Shown here: positions 1,695-57,560 of the stretch, piece by piece
How the letters are laid out: every line of letters begins with the position of its first letter
Position numbering within the stretch: the first letter of the stretch is position 1
Assembly: GCA_009841255.1 (NCBI GenBank)
Contig: VXMD01000082.1
Coordinates: 124,001-188,000 of the forward strand
DNA: 64,000 nucleotides
Direction: 5' to 3'
Source: Candidatus Poribacteria bacterium
GTDB lineage: Bacteria > Poribacteria > WGA-4E > WGA-3G
Position numbers and translations under genes: made by a program
The notes under the pieces: model-generated
The model's input: only the letters and a program-made list of their open reading frames with translations
Told to the model about the DNA's origin: nothing
Database searches by the model: none

Positions 1695-1832
1695 AGGTAT
1701 CGGTCTCCGGTTGTTGGTTATCGGTCTTCGGAAGAGCGATTGTCTATCGTCAGTTACAAGAGGATTTCGTTAAACGAAAATCTCTTAACTAAAAACTGAC
1801 TACCGAAAGGGTTGCGTAGCACCCCGAACCGA
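1695..1832. repeat. Intergenic palindromic repeat B
   Basis: Low-complexity GGTTATCGGT units are followed by AGAGGATTTCGTTAAACGAAAATCTCTT, which folds on itself, and then AACTGACTACCG. The same layout recurs at 41572, 45362, 48471, 52668, 57372 and 61955, always between genes except one copy in the kinase gene at 50684. Confidence 0.55.
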
Positions 1833-1839
1833 ACACCAA

Positions 1840-4800
1840 TTATTGCGATAAAGACTCATAGTAATTATCAACGAGTCTACGATACTCAGGCGGAACATCC
1901 TCCTTTGCGACCTGAGCGAGTCGTTTTTTCTCCTGTAGCGTATTAAGCCGCTCTTCGAGTGCGGTTTCTAACTTATCGAGGTCCCTAATAACGAATTCGT
2001 AGTTCGGAAATGGATTTGAGCGATTTCCGGGTCGGTAGTCCATCGTATCAAGCATACCGAGCCAGAGTCTATCAATTTCCCTGTCTGACTCTCTGCCACC
2101 TGTACGGGAAACCTCCTGATCCGCGGGCTCACCGGGGTTACCAGGTTGGTTCCCTCCTTGCCTTTGCATCGCCTCTTGTGCGCGTTGCATCTGCTCTTGA
2201 ATCTGCTGCTGTTGTTGCGCGAGTTGTTCCCGTCGACGCTGCTGTTCCTCCGTCTGTTCCTGACCTTCCATCGCTTGAAGTTCGCGCTGAATGTCCTGCA
2301 TCCGTTCCCGGGCTTGCTGAAGTTGTTCAAGCGCAGCTTCAAGTTGCTCTTCTTCGGTATTCGCCATACTGGCTCGCGCCTGTTGCAGATCCCCTTGTAC
2401 CTGCTCCAACGTATCTAAGACTTCCTGCTGATTCTGGTCAGCGGCTCGGAAATTCCGCCATTGCAAGGCGCGTTGCGCAGTCGCCATATCTCCGGCAGTC
2501 TGCTCTTCCACGAGCCGTCTTGTCGCATCCGCTACATCTTGGGCTGCCTCCGGATTGTCTGGAGCGAGCTGTTCCTGGATATTGCTCAGTGTACGCTCAA
2601 GTGCCTCCAGATTGCGTTGAAGTTCGCGCTGTTGATTGGCAAGCTCAGACGCTTGTTGGAAATCTTCAGGACGCATCTCTGATTGCTGAGAACGACCTCT
2701 AAGCTCCTGTGTCTGTTGCTGAACATCAGATTGTGCTTCCGTTAACTCCTGAAGTTGTTGAGATGCCCTATCAAGCGCAGCATCTGTGTATTCCACAGCG
2801 ACCTTTTCCAACTGTTCAATGGCTTCCTCAAGCCTCTCTTCCGCTTTCTGTCCCTTAGCGGCACTCAACTGTGGTTCTTCCTGTTGCATGCCCTGAGCGG
2901 CTTCCTCCATCTGTTCACCCGCCTGTTGCATCGACTGTCCAGCTTGATTTAGACGTTGTCCTTGGGTGCCTTGCCCATTTTGTTGCATGGTGTCGAGCTG
3001 CTGCGCCATTCGTTGTGCCTGTTGTGCCAACTGTTCTTGTTGTTGGCTGTTCTGCTGCATTTCACTCGGCGAAGGTTGGTTTTCACGCCCCAACTGTTGG
3101 CTTTGTTGACTCAGTTGCTGCTGCTCTCCTAACATCTGACGCGCGTGATCCAATATCTCCTGTGTCTGCTCTTGCATCTCCATATCGAGTTCGTTCTGTT
3201 GATTCTCAAGCTCGCTTTGCAGCTCTTCCATTTCAAGTTCAAGGTCCTCAGCGAGTTGAGGATTATTATTCCGCATCTGCATCAACACCTTCGGAATTTC
3301 AAGACTCACCTTTATGAGCAATTCAAGTGCTTCCTGCTCCGGCGGGATCGCCTCATCCGGACGGACAGCGTTCAAACTATCACTCGCTTCACCCATTCTG
3401 TCTATTGCCTCTTCCAAGTTCATTAAGATTTCGGGTGAAACGCCGGAGTTCATTTGCATCGCATCACTAAATTCATCCACGACCCGCTGCGTTTTATCCT
3501 TTAATTCGGTTTGTTTTTCACCCGTTTTCCGAACGGCAGCCTGATATTTCTGGGTAGCCGTCACAGGCTTCGCGCTAACGTGTTTCGATGTCTCTCGGAT
3601 AATCTCTTTCTGCGAACTAATTACATCCGAAAGTGGATTCGGCTCAGGCTCAGCCTGTCCGGGTTCTCCTTCTCCTTCGTGGAAATTCTCATTAAAAGGA
3701 CGGATTTCAATGAAGTAAATGTCGCTACTGGCTTCGCCGGGACCGGTGCGTGTGTTATTGTCGACAGCGTGCGCGTAGTAGGAGATAATATCCCCCGGTT
3801 CAACGTCAAATTCCTCCAGATAGAAGGTATAGGCACCATCCACAACGGGACGAGGGGCAGAATCAGGTCCGGATCCTACAACTGGAGTGGAAACGGAGGA
3901 TTCCATCACGAGTTCTCGCAATTCATCGGAACCGACGCGATACATGAGTTTTAATTCTGCAACGCCGTAGTCATCTGTTGCCTCAGCGATGATTCCCACC
4001 TCATCTAACTTTGTAACTTTCACATCTCGACCGGGTTCTTTGATAACAACTTCTGGCACAGCGTCTGGAATGGCTTTAATCGTGTATTCGATCGGTATCT
4101 CGTTGTTGAACCCATCAATGCATAACAACTGAATAGCATAACTTCCGTCCTCAACAACATCTATCGTAGTCGTCAGCGTGTTTCCATCAGAGATAACCAT
4201 TTGACTATCGGCTCTCGGTAGACCATTGTCGGCGTTTAGGACGTTCTCACCGGCACCAGACGGCTCTTGACCGACTGCTGATTGCCGACGACTGATGGCT
4301 ATTGACGCAGTCTGAATCGCTTTGTTCGTCGTAAGCCTGACCTCTGCTTGCGTGCCAACAACAGCATGAACATCCCCTGTCCCTGTTTGCACAACAGGTT
4401 TAAGACCCGTATAGCCAGGATACGTGTAAGCGACCGAAATCTCAGTCACCTTTGGCATTTCAAAGACTTCAACAGTGTAGCGTTCCGAAGTCGCCTCGTT
4501 CGCAACGACATAATATTCCATATCGGCATCAATGTTGAAAATTTCGTAGGCAAACCCGCGCTTATCGTTCGGGTTTCGCAACATGTTAATCTGCTGTTCG
4601 GTTGTTTTAGTTTTGGATGCGGAGACATTATTGGAAGTCACGCGATCACGATCATCGTGAGGGCGTGCATCCACTTGCTCGCCAATATTTCCATAAGTCA
4701 AGACGACCTTTTGAGTAGACTTACCGGTGACAGTCACATGAATCGGCAGACTCTTACCGCGGAGGATACGCGCATTTCCCGGTTCAACAGCGAGCCTGGT

Positions 4801-5382
4801 CGTCAAAATCGGATCCGTTTTCTCCCAAGGGACCAACACACGAAGCAGACCCGTCCGAATTTCCGTCGGAAACAGCAGTGAGAGCACAAAACAACCGACA
4901 ATGACCAAAGCCGCTATACCGACATGTTTACGGGTTCGACTGTGATCGATCGTTGCTCTGAAATTGATGCCTTTTACCCGTTCTGTGGTATCCTCAAGCA
5001 AGCGTTGGAGCATGTGTGCTTCAATCGGATCCGCCGATTCACGGTTTCCGAATTCGATGGCACTCACCAGCCGATCTTCAAGGTTCGGATGGTTGCGTTC
5101 AACGTTGAGGGCAACATCACGGAGCGTGATCGATTTCCGAAGCGGTTGAACGAGATACTTATACAATAGATAACCGATAACACCTACACCGATAACCAAT
5201 AAAGCGAGGCGTACAGTACTTGGGAGCGGCATCAGCCAATCAACTACGGCTTCACCCACCAGTAAAGCGATAACACCTGTTAGGACAATAGCAAACCCCG
5301 TCCAGAAGAGACTCCGTTTCCAGACGCGCCGTGCGTCTAAAACTCTCATTTGTAATTCTGTATAATTTTCTTTTGTATTCAC
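1840..5382 (-). CDS. DUF4175-like membrane protein with long Gln-rich coiled coil
   Basis: This is a 1180-residue protein of unknown function. Two membrane helices lie near residues 24-46 and 56-75, a third near 153-170, and the rest is probably extracytoplasmic. The N-terminus resembles DUF4175 proteins (RDVALNVERNHPNLEDRL). The middle holds beta-rich stretches. Residues about 690-1080 are extremely rich in Gln and Glu in heptad-like arrays, so a long coiled coil is expected. The start is GTG at 5382, chosen because a GGAGG lies 8 bases upstream. Long opposite-strand reading frames here come from the repeated Gln codons and are not genes. The Yip1-like gene lies just upstream on the same strand. 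Confidence 0.8.
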   Translation of the reverse strand: MNTKENYTELQMRVLDARRVWKRSLFWTGFAIVLTGVIALLVGEAVVDWLMPLPSTVRLALLVIGVGVIGYLLYKYLVQPLRKSITLRDVALNVERNHPNLEDRLVSAIEFGNRESADPIEAHMLQRLLEDTTERVKGINFRATIDHSRTRKHVGIAALVIVGCFVLSLLFPTEIRTGLLRVLVPWEKTDPILTTRLAVEPGNARILRGKSLPIHVTVTGKSTQKVVLTYGNIGEQVDARPHDDRDRVTSNNVSASKTKTTEQQINMLRNPNDKRGFAYEIFNIDADMEYYVVANEATSERYTVEVFEMPKVTEISVAYTYPGYTGLKPVVQTGTGDVHAVVGTQAEVRLTTNKAIQTASIAISRRQSAVGQEPSGAGENVLNADNGLPRADSQMVISDGNTLTTTIDVVEDGSYAIQLLCIDGFNNEIPIEYTIKAIPDAVPEVVIKEPGRDVKVTKLDEVGIIAEATDDYGVAELKLMYRVGSDELRELVMESSVSTPVVGSGPDSAPRPVVDGAYTFYLEEFDVEPGDIISYYAHAVDNNTRTGPGEASSDIYFIEIRPFNENFHEGEGEPGQAEPEPNPLSDVISSQKEIIRETSKHVSAKPVTATQKYQAAVRKTGEKQTELKDKTQRVVDEFSDAMQMNSGVSPEILMNLEEAIDRMGEASDSLNAVRPDEAIPPEQEALELLIKVSLEIPKVLMQMRNNNPQLAEDLELEMEELQSELENQQNELDMEMQEQTQEILDHARQMLGEQQQLSQQSQQLGRENQPSPSEMQQNSQQQEQLAQQAQRMAQQLDTMQQNGQGTQGQRLNQAGQSMQQAGEQMEEAAQGMQQEEPQLSAAKGQKAEERLEEAIEQLEKVAVEYTDAALDRASQQLQELTEAQSDVQQQTQELRGRSQQSEMRPEDFQQASELANQQRELQRNLEALERTLSNIQEQLAPDNPEAAQDVADATRRLVEEQTAGDMATAQRALQWRNFRAADQNQQEVLDTLEQVQGDLQQARASMANTEEEQLEAALEQLQQARERMQDIQRELQAMEGQEQTEEQQRRREQLAQQQQQIQEQMQRAQEAMQRQGGNQPGNPGEPADQEVSRTGGRESDREIDRLWLGMLDTMDYRPGNRSNPFPNYEFVIRDLDKLETALEERLNTLQEKKRLAQVAKEDVPPEYRRLVDNYYESLSQ

Positions 5383-14365: not shown

Positions 14366-14451
14366 GCCTGCAACAACGGCGCAGGCGGATATACGGACAG
14401 AAACGTCACTTAACCAATTCACCTGAACGAACCGCAAGGTAAAATTAAAAA
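14366..14451 (+). repeat. Leader element A, full copy, directly before a start codon
   Basis: A GCCTGC/GCAGGC hairpin with AACAACGGC loop is followed by GGATATACGGACAG, a variable middle, and the tail AACCGCAAGGTAAAATTAAAA that ends at the ATG of the isomerase gene. Bases 14240-14365 show no gene. Confidence 0.75.
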
Positions 14452-15213
14452 ATGGAAAATATTATTGCATGTAATTTGGGAAGTTACCGACAGTTTCGCG
14501 CCGGGGCGTATGCCCACTTAGCAGAAATCGGTCTAACGAACGTGGAAATCGGTGTACCTGCGTCTGAATCCGTCGATACCCTCTGCGCAGAATTGAACGC
14601 GCACGGACTCACCGCTACCAGCCTGCTCGGCAGTTGTGACGTTCAGTCTGAAACAGCCGTCTCAGATTTCCAGACGACGCTGGATATCGCTGATCAGATG
14701 GGCGTGAAGATTATCTTTGTCAGCGTGCACGCCGGAGATGTCGACCTGAGTGCGGTTTATGATCGGCTCCGCGCCATCGGCGAAAATGCCGCCCCCGTAG
14801 GTATTAAGGTCTGTCTGGAAACACATCCTGACCTGGTACATAATGGCGAGGTCGCGCTTAAAACGATGCAAGCCGTGAATCATCCCAACATCTGTGTCAA
14901 TTTTGACACTGGCAACGTTTACTATTACAATCACAATGTAACGGCTGTTACGGAAGTCCAGAAAGTTCTCGGACACGTTGGTGCCGTCCATCTCAAGGAT
15001 ACAAACGGCGGCTATCGAACGTGGAATTTCCCGGCACTCGGTGAGGGCGTTGTCGATTTTAAAGCGGTATTTCAGACGTTGAACGATGCAGGTTTCTACG
15101 GTCCCTTCACAATGGAGTTGGAAGGGATTGAGGGTGAAAACCTCGATGAGGCAGGTGCCCAAGCACGGGTCGCAGGCTCACTGCAGCATTTAAAAGACAT
15201 AGGAGTGATATAA
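14452..15213 (+). CDS. Sugar phosphate isomerase/epimerase-like TIM-barrel protein
   Basis: This 253-residue protein belongs to the AP-endonuclease-2/xylose isomerase-like superfamily. Metal-ligand positions typical of the fold are visible: CLETHPDL, NFDTGN, HLKDTNGG and MELEGIE. Members isomerise or epimerise sugars and inositols; the substrate is unknown. The stop overlaps the next start (TAATG), placing it first in an isomerase-cupin-aldo/keto reductase operon, which suggests carbohydrate conversion. The start lies at the end of a leader A element, whose AAGG serves as a weak, distant Shine-Dalgarno. Confidence 0.88.
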   Translation: MENIIACNLGSYRQFRAGAYAHLAEIGLTNVEIGVPASESVDTLCAELNAHGLTATSLLGSCDVQSETAVSDFQTTLDIADQMGVKIIFVSVHAGDVDLSAVYDRLRAIGENAAPVGIKVCLETHPDLVHNGEVALKTMQAVNHPNICVNFDTGNVYYYNHNVTAVTEVQKVLGHVGAVHLKDTNGGYRTWNFPALGEGVVDFKAVFQTLNDAGFYGPFTMELEGIEGENLDEAGAQARVAGSLQHLKDIGVI

Positions 15214-25374: not shown

Positions 25375-25459
25375 GCCTGCAACAACGGCGCAGGCGAATA
25401 TACGAAACATACGCCATAGTTTCAACGCATGTTGTTTAACCGCAAGGAAAAATTAAGAG
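25375..25459 (+). repeat. Leader element A, full copy, before the SDR start
   Basis: GCCTGCAACAACGGCGCAGGC hairpin, then GAATATACGAAACATACGCC, and the tail TTAACCGCAAGGAAAAATTA ending four bases before the ATG. Confidence 0.75.
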
Positions 25460-26209
25460 ATGAGATTTCAGGGAAAGGTTGCATTGGTAACCGGTGGGAG
25501 CCGTGGGATAGGACGGGCCACGGCAATCAAACTCGCCAGTGAAGGAGCGACTGTTGCCGTCCACTATTCTCGCGCCGTTGAAAAAGCAGAATCAGTCTGT
25601 AAGCAGATTCACGATTTGGGGCAGAAAGCAATACCCGTCCAAGCTGATATCGCCGATAGAGACGCCGTGGACAGAATGGTCGCGACGGTGACGGAAGAAC
25701 TTGGTGCAATCGAACTGCTTGTAAACAACGCCGGAGATGTCGGTGATATGGCGTTCGACGAACTCGCGCCTGAACACTGGGACCGGATTATTGCGATTAA
25801 CCTCACAGGTCCGTTCAACGTGTTATGGGCAGTCAAACCCGGGATGATTGCACAACAGTTTGGACGTATTGTCAACGTGTCATCAATCGCGGCATTGGCA
25901 GTCCGTCCGAACCAACTACCATACGCCGCAGCAAAAGCCGGTGTCATTGCGCTGACGAAATCGTGCTGCGGACCGCTTGCACCGCACAATATCCGCATCA
26001 ATTCGGTCGCACCAGGGGCAATCGCCACAGATATGTTAGGAGAAGTCTCATCAGAGATGGTGGAACAACTCCGGTCTACGACACCGCTCGGCAGGCTCGG
26101 TGAACCGGAAGAGATGGCAGATGTGATAGCGTTCCTCCTGAGCGAGGAATCGAGTTATATGACAGGCTCCACGGTGATTGCAAGCGGGGGCAGAATTCTC
26201 ATTCCGTAA
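25460..26209 (+). CDS. Short-chain dehydrogenase/reductase (FabG-like)
   Basis: This 249-residue classical SDR has the cofactor loop TGGSRGIG (11-18), NNAG (89-92), and catalytic Ser142, Tyr155 and Lys159 (YAAAK). It is closest in look to 3-oxoacyl-ACP reductases, but many sugar and alcohol dehydrogenases share these motifs, and no fatty-acid genes are nearby. The gene ends 11 bases inside the 3' end of the convergent gene at 26199. The start is set by the leader A element, whose tail ends just before the ATG. Confidence 0.9.
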   Translation: MRFQGKVALVTGGSRGIGRATAIKLASEGATVAVHYSRAVEKAESVCKQIHDLGQKAIPVQADIADRDAVDRMVATVTEELGAIELLVNNAGDVGDMAFDELAPEHWDRIIAINLTGPFNVLWAVKPGMIAQQFGRIVNVSSIAALAVRPNQLPYAAAKAGVIALTKSCCGPLAPHNIRINSVAPGAIATDMLGEVSSEMVEQLRSTTPLGRLGEPEEMADVIAFLLSEESSYMTGSTVIASGGRILIP

Positions 26210-29252: not shown

Positions 29253-29336
29253 CCTGCAACAACGGCGCAGGCAGATTTAAGGAACGCCCTTCAAAGTCCA
29301 AACGCACGTCGTTACTCCGCAAGGTAAAATTAAAAA
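29253..29336 (+). repeat. Leader element A, full copy, abutting a stop codon
   Basis: GCCTGCAACAACGGCGCAGGC hairpin, then AGATTTAAGGAACGCCC, and the tail CCGCAAGGTAAAATTAAAAA. No plus-strand gene follows. The tail ends five bases before the stop of the convergent permease gene at 29342. Confidence 0.75.
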
Positions 29337-29341
29337 CCTTT

Positions 29342-40376: not shown

Positions 40377-40440
40377 GATATACGGAAAGGAACGCCATAG
40401 TCCAATCCCATACGCCTTAACCGCAAGGAAAATTAGAAAA
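40377..40440 (+). repeat. Leader element A, partial copy lacking the hairpin
   Basis: GATATACGGAAAGGAACGCC, variable middle, and TTAACCGCAAGGAAAATTAG. It ends about 60 bases before the oxidoreductase ATG. A second CCGAAAGGGTAAAAATTG tail lies at 40448. Confidence 0.6.
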
Positions 40441-40501
40441 TCATTGACCGAAAGGGTAAAAATTGATAGAATCCTTGCTAATACAGAAGGAGGCTAAACA
40501 G

Positions 40502-41569
40502 ATGGCAAATCAGACATATCGAGTTGGAATCATCGGCTGCGGCGGAATGGGTAGATCTCATTCCAGAGCATGGACCGCACAGCCCAAAGCGCAAGTTGTC
40601 GCAGCAATGGACATCTATGAAGAAGCGGCGCAACGCGTCTCGGACGAATACGATGTCCCCGCTATCTATACCGACGTTGATGAAATGTTGGCAAAAGAGG
40701 ATTTGGACATCGTCAGCATCACAACGTGGCAGGGACCGCGGGCGGAAGCTACCGTCGCAGCGGCGAAAGCAGGTGTGAAAGGTATTATCGGCGAGAAACC
40801 GATGGCAGCCTCACTTGGACAAGCCGACGCTATGCTCGCCGCCTGTGAAGAGAACGATGTCAAACTTATCATCGGCCACCAAGGTAGATACGCGCCCGCA
40901 AATATCGAAACCCGTCGGCTTGTCGCCGCAGGAGCGATCGGTGAACCGACAACCGTCCACCACAGCGCAAAAAGGCACGCAGGACTGCTGAACACAGGCA
41001 CACACGCCATTGATGGCTGGCGTTTCATTCTGTCCGATCCCGAAACGCTCTGGGTCATTGGACAGACCGCTCGGACGACCGATCGGTGGGAACGCCGCAC
41101 AATCTGTGAGGACCTCTGTATGGGCTTAGTCTGCTTTGAAGGCGGGGCACGTGGCATCTACGAAGGTGATCTGCCCGAACCGTCAGTCTCCCACCCCAAA
41201 ATCGCTGGAACAGAGGGGCAAATTCGCAATGGATCTGACGGCACACTTCTGCTCCAAAACGGGGACGCGAAGGGCTGGCAAACCATTACACCACCCCCAC
41301 AAACAAAAAATCAGTACGATGAATTCATCGAGTGGATTGAGGGTGAAATCCCTGACCATCGCGGCAGTGGCGTTCAGGCACGCTATACGCTTGAAATCAT
41401 GATGGCTATCTATGAATCCTTGCGTATCAAGGACGTCGTCCACATGCCGATGGAAACCAAGGAACTACCGTTGGAACTCATGGTTAACGACGGCACGCTT
41501 CCCGTCTTAGTAGAGGGAAAATACGATTTGCGAAGACCTTTCGATGGGCAGACGTGGAAAAAGCCTTAA
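40502..41569 (+). CDS. Gfo/Idh/MocA family oxidoreductase
   Basis: The product has 355 residues from ATG 40502, preceded by AGGAGG. The N-terminal Rossmann fold has GIIGCGGMGRSH (residues 9-20), and EKPMA around residue 99 carries the conserved Lys of the family. The C-terminal half is the alpha/beta dimerisation and substrate domain. These enzymes use NAD(P) to oxidise or reduce sugars, inositols and related compounds. The substrate is not evident; the downstream neighbours are respiratory genes, so it is probably a single-gene unit. Confidence 0.9.
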   Translation: MANQTYRVGIIGCGGMGRSHSRAWTAQPKAQVVAAMDIYEEAAQRVSDEYDVPAIYTDVDEMLAKEDLDIVSITTWQGPRAEATVAAAKAGVKGIIGEKPMAASLGQADAMLAACEENDVKLIIGHQGRYAPANIETRRLVAAGAIGEPTTVHHSAKRHAGLLNTGTHAIDGWRFILSDPETLWVIGQTARTTDRWERRTICEDLCMGLVCFEGGARGIYEGDLPEPSVSHPKIAGTEGQIRNGSDGTLLLQNGDAKGWQTITPPPQTKNQYDEFIEWIEGEIPDHRGSGVQARYTLEIMMAIYESLRIKDVVHMPMETKELPLELMVNDGTLPVLVEGKYDLRRPFDGQTWKKP

Positions 41570-41571
41570 GG

Positions 41572-41712
41572 GTTATCAGTTATCGGTTCGCATTGCTACG
41601 CAATGCTTTCAGTTTTCAGTTAAGAGGTTTTCGTTTAACGAATCTTTCTTGTAACCGACAGCCGACTACTGAAAGGATTTTCGCAGAAAATCCGTACTGA
41701 TAACCATTAAAA
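41572..41712. repeat. Intergenic palindromic repeat B
   Basis: GGTTATCAGTTATCGGTTCGCATTGC, then TTTTCAGTTAAGAGGTTTTCGTTTAACGAA, then CTGATAACCATTAAAAA; the two ends are inverted repeats of each other. It lies just before the Rieske gene. Confidence 0.6.
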
Positions 41713-44332: not shown

Positions 44333-44362
44333 TCCTGCCCTCCCTTACATTTCGGGCAGATT
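44333..44362 (-). repeat. GC-hairpin variant of leader element A
   Basis: CTGCCCGAAATGTAAGGGAGGGCAG hairpin directly upstream of the TPR lipoprotein gene, as at 658 and 50473. Confidence 0.5.
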
Positions 44363-44444
44363 TTCGGTGAACGCACGACTGAAATAAGGATATGTATGAT
44401 TTTTTAAGAGGTGCTTCACATTCTTCATAACATCAAAAACGTAA

Positions 44445-44530
44445 GCCTGCAACAACGGCGCAGGCGACTCATGGAAATAGAACGCCAAAGCTCAAACTCA
44501 CGTCATTTAACCGCAAGGAATAATTAAAAT
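44445..44530 (+). repeat. Leader element A, full copy, before amidohydrolase start
   Basis: GCCTGCAACAACGGCGCAGGC hairpin, then GACTCATGGAAATAGAACGCC, and the tail TTAACCGCAAGGAATAATTA ending at the ATG. Confidence 0.75.
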
Positions 44531-45364
44531 ATGATTATTGATACACATACACATTTCTACGATCCAACGCGCCCCGAAGGCGTACCCTGGCCGAATCCAG
44601 ATGACGATGTGCTTTACCGAAAGGTGATGCCTGAAGACTACAAAGCACTCGCAGTCCCCGAAGGTGCGACAGGCACTGTCGTCGTCGAGGCGAGCAAATG
44701 GCTTGAGGACAATCAATGGATTCTGGACCTCGCCGCAGATGAACCTTTCATTGTAGGGTTTGTTGGGCATTTAGAACCCGACGATTCGGATTTTGAAGCG
44801 TCTTTGGCAAGGTTTTCCGCGAACCCACTCTTTCGCGGGATACGCCTCGGTGGTGGACATCTACGCGCCATCGGTGACGACACATTTTTAGCCAATATTG
44901 AGAAATTAGCCGCAAACGAACTCGCCTTGGATCTATTGATTAACCCTGAGATGTTATCAACACTGCCCACCTTGGTTGAACATACGCCCGAGATGCACAT
45001 TGTGATCAATCACATCGCAGGCGCGCGAATATCAGAGGAACCCCCCGATCCGGGTTGGGTTTCCGCCATCCACGAAGTCGCTCGCTACCCGAACATCTAT
45101 TGCAAAGTATCTGGACTCGCAGAACACACAGGGCAAATTCCCGCGCCGACAGATGTCACCTATTACACCCCAACGATAGACGTCTTATGGGATGCATTTG
45201 GCGAGGATCGGCTTATCTACGGGAGTAATTGGCCCGTATCCGAACGTTTTGCGCCCTACAACGTCGTGCAACAGATAGTGAACGACTACTTCAGTGCGAA
45301 AGGTGATGCAGTCAAAGCAAAATTCTTCTATCAGAACGCCCAGACAGCGTATCGACTTAAATAG
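44531..45364 (+). CDS. Amidohydrolase-2 family protein (sugar lactonase-like)
   Basis: This 277-residue TIM-barrel hydrolase has MIIDTHTHFYD (His6 and His8 metal motif), VINHIAGARI, and IYGSNWPVS near 229-237, which carries the conserved Asp/Asn region. This set is typical of the family with L-fucono-lactonases and 2-pyrone-4,6-dicarboxylate lactonases. A role in sugar-lactone opening fits the many sugar enzymes in the window but is inferred. The leader A element sets the start. Confidence 0.87.
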   Translation: MIIDTHTHFYDPTRPEGVPWPNPDDDVLYRKVMPEDYKALAVPEGATGTVVVEASKWLEDNQWILDLAADEPFIVGFVGHLEPDDSDFEASLARFSANPLFRGIRLGGGHLRAIGDDTFLANIEKLAANELALDLLINPEMLSTLPTLVEHTPEMHIVINHIAGARISEEPPDPGWVSAIHEVARYPNIYCKVSGLAEHTGQIPAPTDVTYYTPTIDVLWDAFGEDRLIYGSNWPVSERFAPYNVVQQIVNDYFSAKGDAVKAKFFYQNAQTAYRLK

Positions 45365-48470: not shown

Positions 48471-48572
48471 ATGGTTAACAGTTGTCGGTTGTCGGTTAAC
48501 GGTCAGAGCATCTCTTTAACCGAAAACTGATAACCGATAACCACTCCTCCGACAACTAACAACCGATAACTC
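48471..48572. repeat. Intergenic palindromic repeat B
   Basis: GGTTAACAGTTGTCGGTTGTCGG and its inverted partners CTGATAACCGATAACC and CGACAACTAACAACCG fold over each other. It fills the gap between the prepilin peptidase and pseudopilin genes. Confidence 0.6.
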
Positions 48573-48573
48573 A

Positions 48574-49044: not shown

Positions 49045-50472
49045 TTAACTCGCAGAACTCGGTCGCGAAATGCCATATCGGTTCATTTTCTTGTACAAGT
49101 TGCTCCGTTCCACCTGTAATGCTTCTGCGGTACGTCGGATGTTCCACTTATTTTCTTCCAAAGCCGCAAGGATGCATTGCGCTTCGGCAGTATCCATCAT
49201 CTTGCTCAGAGCCGTCCCAGGTGTGTAGAGCGGTATCCCCAGAGCAGACTGTAAGGCATCTTGATTCAGAGTTGCACCTGGCGATGAATATGAGGAAGTA
49301 GGTTGAGGTGTCAATAACAAAGCCTCGGCGACATCGGGTGCCATCACAACATTTCGATTTACCATAATCAGGAGACGTTCAACGATGTTTTTTAACTCTC
49401 GGATGTTCCCAGGCCACTTGTAACTTTGAAACACAGTATAAGCCCTTGGATCAATGACTTTTGGATGGGATGCCATATTGAGTTGCAAACGCTCAGCAAA
49501 GTATTTTACTAACATCGGAATATCTTCTGTACGTTCTCGAAGCGGTGGAACGGTAATAGGTACAACATTAAGCCGATAGAAAAGGTCACGTCGAAACCCC
49601 CCCTTTTCAATCTCTTCAGGGAGGTGTTTATTAGTTGCTGCGATAATTCGAACATCTACCGTCCGAATTTGATTTCCTCCAAGACGTTCGACTTCACCGG
49701 TTTCAATGACGCGCAGGACCTTCGCTTGCGCTTTTAAACTCATATCGCCAATTTCATCAAGAAAGATAGTTCCACCGTGAGCGAGTTCAAAACGTCCCTG
49801 TCTTCGTGAATCTGCACCAGTAAAAGCACCGCGTTCATGTCCAAAGAGTTCACTCTCAATGAGTTCATCGGGCAGAGCGGCACAGTTGAGGGGAATAAAG
49901 GTTTTCGCGGCACGTCTGCTCTGTCGGTGGATCGCATTCGCAACAAGTTGCTTACCCGTGCCATTCTCGCCAGAGATGAGAACACCGAGCTTACTCCCCG
50001 CGACCCGTTCAATCTGTGAGCGGAGGTGCGAAATAACAGCACTCTCACCTACCATTTCGTCGGTGGGTGTAATTTGTGATTTTAGAATCTCATTTTCTTG
50101 CGATAAGCGTGATATATCCAAAAACGGCTGAACACTGGAGAGAATTTTATCAATACTAATCGGTTTTGCGATATATCGCTTTGCCCCGAGTTCCATCGTC
50201 TTAACAGCAATTTCAATATCTTGTTGCGCAGACATCATCACCACATTTAACTCTGGATAGCGTTCACGAAGTTTTACAAGCGTCTGAACACCATCCATTC
50301 CATTTTCCATGCGGATATCCAACAGCACAAGATCTACATCGGACTTGACGCACTGTTGCAATGCTGCCTCACCACTCGCCGCTGTGAGAGCTTGGTACCC
50401 GCGCATTTTGAGCCCTTGGGACAACATTTTAAGCGTATTTTTTTCGTCATCTACAATCAGAATGGTTTCCAT
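49045..50472 (-). CDS. NtrC-family sigma-54-dependent response regulator
   Basis: This 475-residue protein has a receiver domain with phospho-acceptor Asp52 (LVLLDIRM), an AAA+ domain with Walker A GENGTGKQLV and the sigma-54 loop GAFTGA, and a C-terminal Fis-type helix-turn-helix (WNIRRTAEALQVERSNLYKKMNRYGI). It activates sigma-54 promoters when phosphorylated. The histidine kinase upstream on the same strand is the likely partner; the pseudopilin downstream is a likely target, as in PilS-PilR systems. Confidence 0.95.
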   Translation of the reverse strand: METILIVDDEKNTLKMLSQGLKMRGYQALTAASGEAALQQCVKSDVDLVLLDIRMENGMDGVQTLVKLRERYPELNVVMMSAQQDIEIAVKTMELGAKRYIAKPISIDKILSSVQPFLDISRLSQENEILKSQITPTDEMVGESAVISHLRSQIERVAGSKLGVLISGENGTGKQLVANAIHRQSRRAAKTFIPLNCAALPDELIESELFGHERGAFTGADSRRQGRFELAHGGTIFLDEIGDMSLKAQAKVLRVIETGEVERLGGNQIRTVDVRIIAATNKHLPEEIEKGGFRRDLFYRLNVVPITVPPLRERTEDIPMLVKYFAERLQLNMASHPKVIDPRAYTVFQSYKWPGNIRELKNIVERLLIMVNRNVVMAPDVAEALLLTPQPTSSYSSPGATLNQDALQSALGIPLYTPGTALSKMMDTAEAQCILAALEENKWNIRRTAEALQVERSNLYKKMNRYGISRPSSAS

Positions 50473-50523
50473 ATTTTTAATTACGGTGCTGGTGCCTGCC
50501 CTCCATTCTATTCTGGGCAGGTA
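50473..50523 (-). repeat. Leader element A, GC-hairpin variant, before the regulator gene
   Basis: CTACCTGCCCAGAATAGA then ATGGAGGGCAGG forms the hairpin, and ACCGTAATTAAAAAT ends at the ATG. Bases 50524-50683 show no gene. Confidence 0.55.
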
Positions 50524-50683
50524 GTTGGTTTTCTCAAACGGATACTCTTAGCGCTGCAGTTAATAGGGAGCAAGTTTAGTCTTCAATGCCCATTACCTAA
50601 TCTTCGGTTTCCAGTTCACTCACCAAGTTCGTGCGCGGTATTAATTCTTCATCCGCCGATGTAGATTCCCCAGAGTGGGTCTC

Positions 50684-52660
50684 TCAGTCATGGGGAAAAT
50701 GGATACGGACAGTCGTGCCTACGCCTTCAGTGCTTTGAAAGTCTATCTCAGCACCGTGCTCCGTGACAATCCTTCTAACAATCGGCACGCCGAGCCCTCT
50801 ACTACTTGCCTCCGACTTTGTCGTGTAATAAGGCACAAAGAGATTCGCCATAGTCTCTTCGGACATACCGTGACCAGTATCTTGAATTTCCAGCGAAATC
50901 GTACCATTAATGGCTGTCGGCTCTCGGCTGTCGGCTGTCGGTGCATAGCGATTGCTATCGCTTTCATCTGCCACCAGATTCTCTTGCTGACTGCCATTTG
51001 GTGTGAAATAGGTTTTAACCTTAAGCAATCCGCCCTCAGGCATCGCTTCAATTGCATTTTTCAGAAGATTGCCAAGTGCTTGTGTAATCTGTTCTGGATC
51101 AACTAAAAGCAGAGGAAGCGGAACTAACTCAGTGCTAACTTTAATTTTTGAGAGGTTTTCAAGCCAAAACTCCTCAGTAGAACCTTGTAGTACCGAGTCT
51201 ACCTGCTCTGAACTCATCGGTGCGATTTCATTCTCCTGCTCAAGGTCCGGTATGTGTCTACCGGTGTACAACGTCAGAACAGATCTCACAATGTCATTCA
51301 ACTGGCTCCATTTCCGCTGGGGCTTTGGCACTCGTGCGAATTGATGGAACTCATCTATGAGTTTACCGATCCGGTCCACTTCTTCAATGACTGTGTCGGT
51401 ACACTCACTGAATATTTGCTCAAAAACTTCAGGATTCGATTTCGCCTGCTGCAGGTTTTCAACAGAGAGCCGAATCGGAAAGAGCGGGTTTTTAACCTCA
51501 TGTGCCACCTGCCGTGCAGCATCCCTCCAAGTCGCAGCACGTTCCGCCGCCATGCGCTCTTCCATGCTTTGCTTCAGGTCCTGTGCCATTTGATTGAATC
51601 CCTCAGCAAGCTGCCCCACCTCGTTATGGGATTGGATTTTAACGCGATGATCAAGATCACCCGCTGCAATATGACCAACTCCCTCACGTAGAACCGCGAT
51701 AGGACGAGTAATCCGACGACTCATGATATAACTGATGAGATAAACTAACGCGAGTCCACCGATACCACTTAAAAGCAGCGTGATCGTAAGTTGCTGCTGC
51801 CATCTCACTTGACGTTCATGCGAATATGCAACGACCAAACCAACAGAAGGCACCTCGCGCGTCATCGTAAAGGGTGAGTTGAAAGGTGTTATCCGAAAAG
51901 CCGTAAAAGCGCGCCCATCGGTCTCTTCCGTTCCCTGTAAAAAGACTTTTTGCTCTGGCAGCCAACTCGGGAGCAATTTAAACCATCCTCTTCCTTGCGC
52001 CGTCTGAGAGGCGAAATTTAACGGTAGCCAATCCTCCCCTGTTGTCTGCGATTCGGTGTCGAAAGATGCTGTGTCCGACATTTGGGACCTTCCTACAAGG
52101 AAGATCGGATGCTCATCTGATTGGATGCTCGTTTGGGTTGTCTCTAACCACGTTTGCAAGAGGCGGCCCCCCGTCACAAATCCCCAATCGCCGGCTTCCG
52201 TTACCTGAACGACATATTGTAGCCCCAAATCGCTCTGTTCGGGAATACTTCTGAGTTGTATATGTCCCTTCTCGTTGTCCGACGGATTATATAGTGGGTT
52301 CCTTCTTCCTACACGTGTATCGGGATATAGCAGTCTTCCGTCCGGAGCACCATACTCTAAAAGATCAAACTCTGGTGCCGGTAGATAACTAAACGGCGCT
52401 CCTCTTTCTATGACATCATGCAGCCTTACATCATTGGCAGTGGCATGGACCTCTTTCTGAATTTGGTTGAGCAACTTTTGATAATTGTTTGAAATCTGGG
52501 CTTGAATCCGCTCAACATAAGTTTCAATTTCCCGTCTAAAAGCGCGCCGAATCAGGAAACTGGTACTCCCAAAGATAACGCCAAACATGACAAGAAAGAC
52601 GAAGCCGTAAGCGATAAATATTTTATCATGGAATCGTAAACCGGAAAGCCTATTCCTCAT
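50684..52660 (-). CDS. NtrY-like membrane sensor histidine kinase
   Basis: This 658-residue protein has a first helix at about 14-34, a 240-residue external sensor, a second helix near 286-309, a HAMP domain, and a HisKA domain with ARQVAHEVKNPLFPIRLS. The HATPase domain is NLLKNAIEAMPEGG, IQDTGHGMSE and SRGLGVPIVRRIV. Between the N and G1 boxes lies an insert of about 30 residues (DSNRYAPTADSREPTAIN) encoded by DNA like the intergenic B repeat. It likely phosphorylates the regulator at 49045. Confidence 0.93.
   Translation of the reverse strand: MRNRLSGLRFHDKIFIAYGFVFLVMFGVIFGSTSFLIRRAFRREIETYVERIQAQISNNYQKLLNQIQKEVHATANDVRLHDVIERGAPFSYLPAPEFDLLEYGAPDGRLLYPDTRVGRRNPLYNPSDNEKGHIQLRSIPEQSDLGLQYVVQVTEAGDWGFVTGGRLLQTWLETTQTSIQSDEHPIFLVGRSQMSDTASFDTESQTTGEDWLPLNFASQTAQGRGWFKLLPSWLPEQKVFLQGTEETDGRAFTAFRITPFNSPFTMTREVPSVGLVVAYSHERQVRWQQQLTITLLLSGIGGLALVYLISYIMSRRITRPIAVLREGVGHIAAGDLDHRVKIQSHNEVGQLAEGFNQMAQDLKQSMEERMAAERAATWRDAARQVAHEVKNPLFPIRLSVENLQQAKSNPEVFEQIFSECTDTVIEEVDRIGKLIDEFHQFARVPKPQRKWSQLNDIVRSVLTLYTGRHIPDLEQENEIAPMSSEQVDSVLQGSTEEFWLENLSKIKVSTELVPLPLLLVDPEQITQALGNLLKNAIEAMPEGGLLKVKTYFTPNGSQQENLVADESDSNRYAPTADSREPTAINGTISLEIQDTGHGMSEETMANLFVPYYTTKSEASSRGLGVPIVRRIVTEHGAEIDFQSTEGVGTTVRIHFPHD
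50905..50972. repeat. Repeat-B-like sequence inside the kinase coding region
   Basis: GGCTGTCGGCTCTCGGCTG followed by TCGGTGCATAGCGATTGC resembles the start of the B repeat at 41580 (GTTATCGGTTCGCATTGC). It stays in frame and adds residues to the ATPase domain. Confidence 0.5.
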
Positions 52661-52667
52661 TTTTTTT

Positions 52668-52768
52668 ATAGTTCTCAGTTCTCAGCTCTCAGCTCTCAGT
52701 TAAGAGGTTCTCGTTTAAGAATTCTCTTGTGACTGTTAACCGATATCTGTTAACTGCCCACCCCTAAA
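52668..52768. repeat. Intergenic palindromic repeat B
   Basis: Tandem GTTCTCAGCTCTCAG units lead into TCAGTTAAGAGGTTCTCGTTTAAGAATTCTCTTG and GTTAACCGATATCTGTTAACTG. It separates pgi from the kinase gene. Confidence 0.55.
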
Positions 52769-54267: not shown

Positions 54268-54437
54268 GCCTGCAACAATACGCAGAAATACCGGATTTAG
54301 TCTGGGGTTAGACTAAACCCATTCCTTGTATTACATTGCAAAAACACGCAGGCGGATCTACGGAAAGACACCTTATGCATCAAACCCACCTAACCGAACC
54401 GCAAGGAAACATTAAAAAACCGAACTGTAAGGTAAAT
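54268..54437 (+). repeat. Leader element A with enlarged hairpin and doubled tail, at a stop codon
   Basis: GCCTGCAACAATACGCAG begins the copy. A roughly 70-base insert, CACGCAGGCGGATCTACGG and then two successive CCG..AAGG..ATT.AAAAA tails follow. The last tail merges with the stop codon of the convergent cupin gene. Confidence 0.65.
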
Positions 54438-54978: not shown

Positions 54979-55062
54979 GCCTGCAACAACGGCACAGGCG
55001 GGTCTACGGAAAGACACCTTATGCATCAAACCCACCTCACCGAACCACAAGGTATAATTAAA
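54979..55062 (+). repeat. Leader element A overlapping a gene start
   Basis: GCCTGCAACAACGGCACAGGC hairpin, GGGTCTACGGAAAGACACC, then ATGCATCAAACCCACC and the tail CACAAGGTATAATTAAAAAC. The middle is nearly identical to the copy at 54268. Here it runs into the coding sequence without a following ATG. Confidence 0.7.
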
Positions 55063-56082
55063 AACCTTATTGAGAATAGCATCTCCGAAAAGGTGTTTCC
55101 GGGTGCCGTCGTCTGTATCCTTACTGATAAAAAAGTGCTTTATCACGAGGCGTTTGGGTATCGATGGGTGAAACCGAAAAAACTACCGATGCTTCGCACG
55201 ACGGTATTCGATTTAGCCTCGCTGACGAAACCGATTGCCATAGGAACGCTTTGCATGCAGTTCGTTGAGAGAGGCAAACTTTCCTTGGATACACCCGCAG
55301 AGAAATATCTACCCGAGTTCAGACATGAAGGCGTGACGCTTAAACACCTGCTGACACATACTTCAGGACTCCCCGCGTGGTTACCCGTCTATCTGCGCGC
55401 ACCATCACGTACAGATGTAATCTCCTATCTCGGAGATGTTCCCCTGGAAACTCAACCTGGGAAGAAAGTCGTGTACAGCTGCTTGGGATATATTGTGTTA
55501 GGCACACTCTTTGAAAGGGTCGTAGGAAAATCTCTGGATAAATTGGCACGAGATCAGATTTTCGCGCCACTGGGTATGGAATGGACGCGGTTCAACCCAC
55601 CACAAGCATGGCGTGAGCACTGTGCCGCAACAGAGGATTCCAACAGTTTCGAACGCCGGATGGTGAACTACGAACGCTACGATTGGCGAGAAGGTGTGAT
55701 CATCGGACAGGTCCACGATGAAAACGCACATTTCCTCGGCGGCGTTTCCGGCAATGCTGGACTTTTCTCTACGGCAAAAGACCTCAGTCTGTTCTGCCGA
55801 ACGTTGATGGACAACGGTGGTGGACTGTTACGCTCGGAGAGTCTCTCTACGATGCAACAGGTCGCTTCGGCGGAGGGAGAACGCCGGGGCATCGGTTGGG
55901 TCGTGACAGACGACGGCTGTCTCTACCATACAGGGTTCACTGGCACTTCAATACGAATCTGTCTAAAAAGAAGACTTGCAGCGATTCTGTTGACAAATCG
56001 AGTGCATCCCGATGCTGATCGGCGTGGCATTATCGAATTCCGAAAAATCTTCCACGATATAGTTTTCGGTGGTCAGCTTTAA
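55021..56082 (+). CDS. S12-type serine hydrolase (beta-lactamase class C fold)
   Basis: The product has about 353 residues. Motifs are Ser67-x-x-Lys70 (LASLTKP), the Tyr motif YSCLGY, and HTGFTG near the end. This is the fold of class C beta-lactamases, DD-peptidases and the B. subtilis AmiE/YbbE amidase. The start is uncertain: ATG 55021 lies within a leader A element, and homology-like sequence begins after it (ENSISEKVFPGAVVCIL). It is followed by namZ and anmK, as in murein-recycling clusters, so an amidase or peptidase acting on cell-wall fragments is likely. Confidence 0.82.
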   Translation: MHQTHLTEPQGIIKNLIENSISEKVFPGAVVCILTDKKVLYHEAFGYRWVKPKKLPMLRTTVFDLASLTKPIAIGTLCMQFVERGKLSLDTPAEKYLPEFRHEGVTLKHLLTHTSGLPAWLPVYLRAPSRTDVISYLGDVPLETQPGKKVVYSCLGYIVLGTLFERVVGKSLDKLARDQIFAPLGMEWTRFNPPQAWREHCAATEDSNSFERRMVNYERYDWREGVIIGQVHDENAHFLGGVSGNAGLFSTAKDLSLFCRTLMDNGGGLLRSESLSTMQQVASAEGERRGIGWVVTDDGCLYHTGFTGTSIRICLKRRLAAILLTNRVHPDADRRGIIEFRKIFHDIVFGGQL

Positions 56083-57485: not shown

Positions 57486-57560
57486 GAGGGCGGATTTGAG
57501 GTAGGCACGTCAAAGATAAAACCTACTTCGTTTAACCGCAAGGAAAAATTAAAAAATTTT
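57486..57560 (+). repeat. Leader element A, before anmK
   Basis: GGAGGGCGGATTTGAGGTAGG, variable middle, and the tail TTTAACCGCAAGGAAAAATT with further A. It ends at an ATG (57561) that is out of frame with anmK. Confidence 0.65.

Follow-up and report, generated by a model that had tools for sequence, protein, structure and literature searches.

How did a sensor histidine kinase of Candidatus Poribacteria come to have about 30 extra residues in its ATPase domain, between the N and G1 boxes? The original prediction, made from the letters of the window (the whole stretch of 64,000 nucleotides analysed here), was that a copy of an intergenic repeat, family B, had been inserted there in frame. 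The Poribacteria are sponge-associated; the genome that contains this kinase is a MAG of 5.73 Mb in 87 contigs, and the kinase is also encoded by named relatives, which are Candidatus Poribacteria MAGs.

The host kinase and its extra residues

The features of the kinase locus are as follows.

50684-52660, minus strand: host gene, a HAMP-HisKA-HATPase_c sensor histidine kinase of 658 aa (Pfam)
50690-51100, minus strand: HATPase_c domain, interrupted by the repeat (Pfam, residues 521-657)
50909-50998, minus strand: in-frame repeat copy (~90 bp) in the kinase gene, sense AATGGCAGTCAGCAAGAG...GCCGACAGCCATT, peptide NGSQQENLVADESDSNRYAPTADSREPTAI
50911-50941, minus strand: 3' arm of this copy, about four heptad units (GCCGACA/GCCGAGA; TRF period 7)
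49045-50472, minus strand: NtrC-type response regulator adjoining the kinase (Pfam Response_reg, Sigma54_activat and HTH_8)

The end points of the copy were placed by eye, and the profile alignment described below covers 50906-50995; TRF finds period 7, with 4.3 copies, at 50912-50941. As proposed, the reading frame is kept through the insertion, with HisKA preceding it and HATPase_c spanning it. All NCBIfam matches shown for the kinase, the nearest models being LIC_11548 and AtoS, fall below the cut-off, and the label 'NtrY-like' is therefore a description of type only. The adjoining NtrC-type regulator is the presumed partner of the kinase.

Comparison with relatives bears out the surplus of about 30 residues: the stretch from NAIEA to DTGxGM measures 65 aa here versus 35 in all ten order-level orthologs. 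In addition, alignment to the solved kinase 3d36 breaks exactly at the insert, leaving 35 residues between two aligned blocks versus 4 in 3d36. Since the sequence boxes and motifs are intact in the nine orthologs aligned, the kinase with its loop probably stays active. Structure prediction for this region (300 aa, nine sequences) was poor, with a mean pLDDT of 48.3, and sets the loop between two strands, at a pLDDT of ~33-35.

The loop in related kinases

We searched 36 genomes of the genus, the window's included, 35 of which contain the relevant part of the kinase (the gene in G015 is truncated). All 35 orthologs have 54-95 aa between NAIEA and DTGxGM, mostly unrelated in sequence, and a sister subclade (L011, L014-L016) has an unrelated stretch that is likewise 65 aa long, which argues against an insertion into a plain kinase. 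The class-level homologue L226 also has an unrelated stretch of 65 residues at this place. None of the distant homologues compared has the window's residues encoded by unrelated DNA, and in this respect the prediction holds; unrelated residues are what was found at the site.

On a tree built without the loop, the window's species falls in a starred clade of nine species, in which the stretch measures 65, 75, 54, 78, 86, 92, 92, 95 and 78 aa. A heptad score of at least 15 out of 18 is reached by nine of the 35 orthologs, six of them from the nine-species clade and the others forming a separate clade of three (L019, L021, L027), a distribution that requires three changes on the tree. A score of only 15 (shuffle P 0.02-0.035 among 46 rows tested) makes L027, L051 and L054 weak by heptads alone; the outgroup row L219, with a score of 13, has a P of 0.025 as well.

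A dispersed repeat with inverted heptad arms

The heptad signal itself is real and above chance. GTCGGCTGTCGG, at up to one mismatch, has 5 matches in the window against 0.19 expected, and a pattern of three degenerate heptads (TCRGYTN), at up to two mismatches, has 28 against 0.82, the largest shuffle giving 3. The literal motif GCATAGCGATTGC has a single exact match in the window, at 50943, and a weak excess when two mismatches are allowed (4 matches versus 1.49 expected), so that literal motifs alone are insufficient to define the family. The degenerate pattern has 166 exact matches in the own genome versus 4 for the reversed control, and 35-391 matches per genome in the 36 genus genomes versus 0-9 in 24 others. 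An earlier reading, that there was no repeat family, came from a genome-wide scan with literal motifs (none, or 4 matches against 3 for the reversed control), and was overturned by the degenerate heptads and then by a BLAST search with the loop.

That BLAST-type search, with the 107-bp loop region against 60 genomes, returned the orthologous kinases together with near-full-length copies elsewhere in related genomes, for example at 79% identity on contig C101 of G034 (the best, E 4e-14), 76% on C353 of the same genome, 78% on C328 of G013 and 76% in G018. The non-kinase matches, at 72-79% identity over 55-90 bp, lie in intergenic DNA and in other genes and include the non-heptad core. An alignment of 23 of these non-kinase copies shows what they share: GCAGTCA-type heptad arms, AAGAG, a core resembling TCTTGTGGCAG..AAAACGATAGCAAC.GCCACA and, on the 3' side, an arm of GCCGACA-type heptads that ends close to GCCATTA. 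The repeat is thus ~107 bp long, with two inverted arms of degenerate 7-bp units around a core that begins AAGAG, and its termini resemble AATRGC...GCYATT by eye. RNAalifold kept just 4 base pairs in the model of the 23 copies (R1, 107 positions), and the DNA of ten copies folds only moderately better than shuffles (z -0.64 to -4.38). An Rfam search of the window at gathering scores gave 0 matches.

The profile of the 23 non-kinase copies matches the kinase loop at an nhmmer E of 5e-20, and the kinase copy is the top match of R1 in its own genome (E 8.9e-15). Because the kinase loop served to recruit the 23 copies, a procedure that favours this loop and open copies, the profile leans towards it; less circular evidence is provided by the loop BLAST and by a second window copy at 4200-4290, which lay outside the set used to build the profile. 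At E<=0.001, R1 matches all 36 genus genomes (at least 18-65 matches each, among 65 candidates scored per genome), and of the 24 genomes from outside the genus 19 have none and five have 1-2. The own genome has at least 87 R1 rows at E<=0.01 among 150 candidates scored, palindrome mirror rows included.

Within the genus kinases the profile (E<=0.01) detects ten of 35 orthologs, comprising eight of the nine species of the window's clade plus L019 and L021; at the same threshold it has no match in L007, L027, the remaining 23 genus kinases or 11 outgroup rows. The repeat in the kinase is accordingly neither recent nor special to the window's strain, being present in eight of nine species. A second, adjacent copy is detected in the loops of L052, L053, L054 and L008 at E<=0.01, and weakly in those of L055 (0.03) and L051 (0.08), while the 3' arm differs among close orthologs by three units (21 bp).

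These results bear on an alternative in which the stretch is a hypervariable, low-complexity hydrophilic linker that grows by 7-bp slippage and resembles the repeat by convergence on S/N/D/E/Q-rich codons. Such a linker would suit the long loops of all 35 genus orthologs, mostly without similarity to the repeat, as well as the 21-bp difference in the heptad array between close species. It sits poorly with a match that extends through a non-heptad core, at the identities given above, to intergenic DNA and other genes, and with the 23 other genus kinases that have similar loops and no profile match. The loop BLAST and profile results already disfavour it, and we regard it as unlikely. A related candidate, the loop as an ancestral linker with heptad expansion only, was dropped after the loop-DNA BLAST found dispersed copies.

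Relation to the AT-rich intergenic elements

Heptad-armed elements also lie elsewhere in the window.

1707-1806, plus strand: heptad-armed element with AAGAG...CTCTT core
41569-41672, plus strand: heptad-armed element, taken as intergenic
48478-48573, plus strand: intergenic heptad-armed element
52668-52740, plus strand: intergenic AT-rich relative with heptad arms and AAGAG...CTCTT core, just upstream of the kinase

No kinase row is matched at E<=1 by a profile built from 12 AT-rich intergenic elements, and a stricter pattern for these elements found only 2. Since their profile misses the kinase loop, the AT-rich elements are related to it by architecture more than by core. The original prediction holds in part: the extra kinase residues come from an in-frame copy of a dispersed repeat, as the loop BLAST and R1 indicate.

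Separately, in three species (L186-L188) a C25-propeptide protein contains, in frame, the AT-rich heptad element that is usually intergenic, and a candidate 921-codon frame in the own genome (L098 on contig C30, 1162-3924) has two AT-type heptad clusters, at 1315 and 2930.

Copies inside genes

The repeat had been thought to lie, apart from the kinase, only between genes. This does not hold, given a second in-frame copy in the window and 16 of 49 places in the own genome that lie in open frames.

4200-4290, minus strand: second in-frame copy, in ORF 1843-5382 (DUF4175, 1180 aa; Pfam), matched by the 23-copy profile at nhmmer E 1.7e-11

The 49 are the distinct own-genome places examined (30 loci less one mirror, and 20 more), the remaining rows being mirrors or weaker. 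A place was counted as genic if an open frame of at least 150 codons covered the repeat and continued for 15 codons past each of its ends, with ORFs called mechanically. All 16 genic places are in the sense of the model. Their hosts are the kinase, the DUF4175 protein, a C25-propeptide protein, CarB, a SpoIIE phosphatase with receiver, a propeller protein, RecG, an ion channel, a T2SSK/HHH protein, an SLT transglycosylase, a TPR protein, RecD2 and four proteins without a Pfam match (L290, L303, L308, L317). The copy in the ion channel is close to the N-terminus and could lie ahead of the true start. In other genomes of the genus, Pfam and NCBIfam identify the hosts as CarA, Der, RNase J (two species), LpxK, an Omp85/PD40 protein, a propeller protein and an MFS protein.

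Twelve of the 23 model copies lie in frames of at least 200 codons, ten in sense and two in antisense, the latter probably spurious; recruitment favoured copies resembling the open copy, so the genic fractions in this set are inflated. Of 13 genic copies with the TCAG..AAGAR motif, 12 use one frame, xQQE. Some sense frame is free of stops in 29 of the 49 places and some antisense frame in 13, and the sense bias is therefore partly a stop filter.

Sites without the insert

In CarB, SGGQKENPVAGEAYNNRYNEPLTTEGLRLPKA is found only in the window's species and is missing from the 29 other genus orthologs aligned (30 of the 36 genomes entered the alignment). For RecG, a longer stretch of SQQ type is found in the five nearest species (L156-L160), and 17 other genus and eight other orthologs are shorter. 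Three of 19 orthologs of the C25-propeptide protein (L186-L188) carry an element of the AT type, whose arms are heptads and whose core is TTTGTTAAACG..CTCTT-like; the AT-rich profile detects L187 and L186 at better than E 0.01, and L188 at 0.01. Because the flanks differ in sequence too, these are not exact empty sites: the differences between them include replacement besides insertion, and none of them shows a clean target-site duplication or an exact empty site.

The repeat might instead be a domesticated linker, recruited to tune the kinase or other hosts through the length of the loop and maintained by selection. Its retention in eight of nine clade species and its presence in conserved enzymes are what one would expect of such a linker. 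Nevertheless, the stretch varies strongly in length within the clade (54-95 aa), L007 has largely lost the repeat, and CarB in the other species aligned is without the insert, all of which looks like tolerance; we consider domestication very unlikely. Lastly, an artefact of MAG assembly or binning, conceivable for an 87-contig MAG, is extremely improbable, given that the insert also occurs in the kinases of several other genomes, including a single-contig one (L052, from G010), and in the named records L036-L038.

Other repeats in the window

A second repeat family, with nine copies in the window, ends in CCGCAAGG(T/A)AAAATTAAAAA, often after GCCTGCAACAACGGCGCAGGC, and stops a few bases before an ATG at several loci. 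Its copies lie at

822-872
14403-14453
25411-25461
29288-29338
40392-40442
44482-44532
54370-54420
55016-55066
57507-57557

A hairpin-like repeat, CTGCCCTCCATTACATT..GGGCAG, has three copies, at 680-714, 44335-44369 and 50496-50530. Between 59806 and 64000, direct repeats that are long but imperfect (300 nt; 82% and 77%) lie some 2.4 kb from one another and have units spaced at 126 nt; our guess is that these encode WD40-type repeat proteins.

Discussion

Taken together, these data make it likely that the extra stretch of the kinase is translated from a copy of a small, MITE-like mobile palindrome, non-autonomous and confined to a single genus of Poribacteria. The best reading is that the repeat is tolerated in frame in loops and works like the Rickettsia palindromic elements (RPEs). 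Under such a scheme, copies moved by a putative transposase would land widely, and most coding insertions would break the gene and be lost. The survivors would be those in loops or linkers with no stop on the sense strand, and with time they would drift until they were ordinary hydrophilic linkers. In the kinase, the repeat may have entered or overwritten an N-G1 loop that was already long and variable, before the nine-species clade diversified; it would later have been duplicated beside itself in some species, and its 3' arm would have gained or lost three heptads (21 bp).

By arithmetic, a change of three 7-bp units is 21 bp and keeps the frame. Furthermore, since 7 leaves a remainder of 1 when divided by 3, a stop-free heptad array encodes the same heptapeptide in every frame of its strand. 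We put forward as a hypothesis that this property has had an evolutionary role. More tentatively, the 7-bp unit could make the element nearly frame-neutral, a mobile source of linkers that supplies housekeeping proteins with disordered, hydrophilic loops open to tuning, some of them preserved by selection; we hold this to be possible and rather doubtful.

Rickettsia is the best-known case of mobile palindromes translated in frame. According to PMC2229807, 19 reading frames of Rickettsia contain in-frame RPEs of 105-146 bp, a guanylate kinase with such an RPE remains active, and other small non-autonomous MITE-type repeats (ERIC, NEMIS or Correia, YPAL) may also fuse in frame. RPE-containing protein groups are listed in PMC2635572, and a 2024 review (PMC10969869) regards RPE fusion as unusually frequent and thinks a comparable mechanism conceivable in other prokaryotes. 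The Poribacteria repeat resembles the RPEs in being a short, apparently palindromic repeat with an open frame that is both intergenic and in frame in genes for conserved proteins. With 107 positions it falls within the RPE-type range of ~100-150 bp and is dispersed, and it has a preferred frame and orientation, a preference that partly follows from stop codons and open-frame selection. The likeness is one of description. The Poribacteria are a different phylum, and the arms of their repeat are degenerate 7-bp arrays. It shares with ERIC, NEMIS and YPAL small size, non-autonomy and possible in-frame fusion, but the TIR/TSD of those families were not identified in it.

Coding palindromic repeats in Wolbachia protein genes, reportedly described by Ogata in 2005, also seem comparable, as coding palindromes in protein genes. 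Cyanobacterial heptanucleotide STRR repeats are arrays of 7-bp units between genes; they differ from the Poribacteria repeat, which has two inverted arms around a core and copies within genes. REPs too are dispersed palindromes, but at 20-40 bp and extragenic (PMC3733652) they are unlike a repeat of ~107 bp that is partly genic. In the Poribacteria literature on heptanucleotide, intergenic and palindromic repeats and on transposable elements, as far as it was covered (few subscription journals), the repeat is described in no title or abstract. The kind is thus already known; what seems new, within this coverage, is the family, its phylum and its build with heptad arms.

The Poribacteria repeat is a candidate case of in-frame palindromes in an unrelated phylum and, because these genomes are 4-7 Mb in size, one without a tie to the reduced genomes of intracellular bacteria. 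The 36 related species make it possible to trace on a tree how the inserted peptides are gained, lost and worn away, and whether they are junk or raw material for protein evolution thereby becomes testable.
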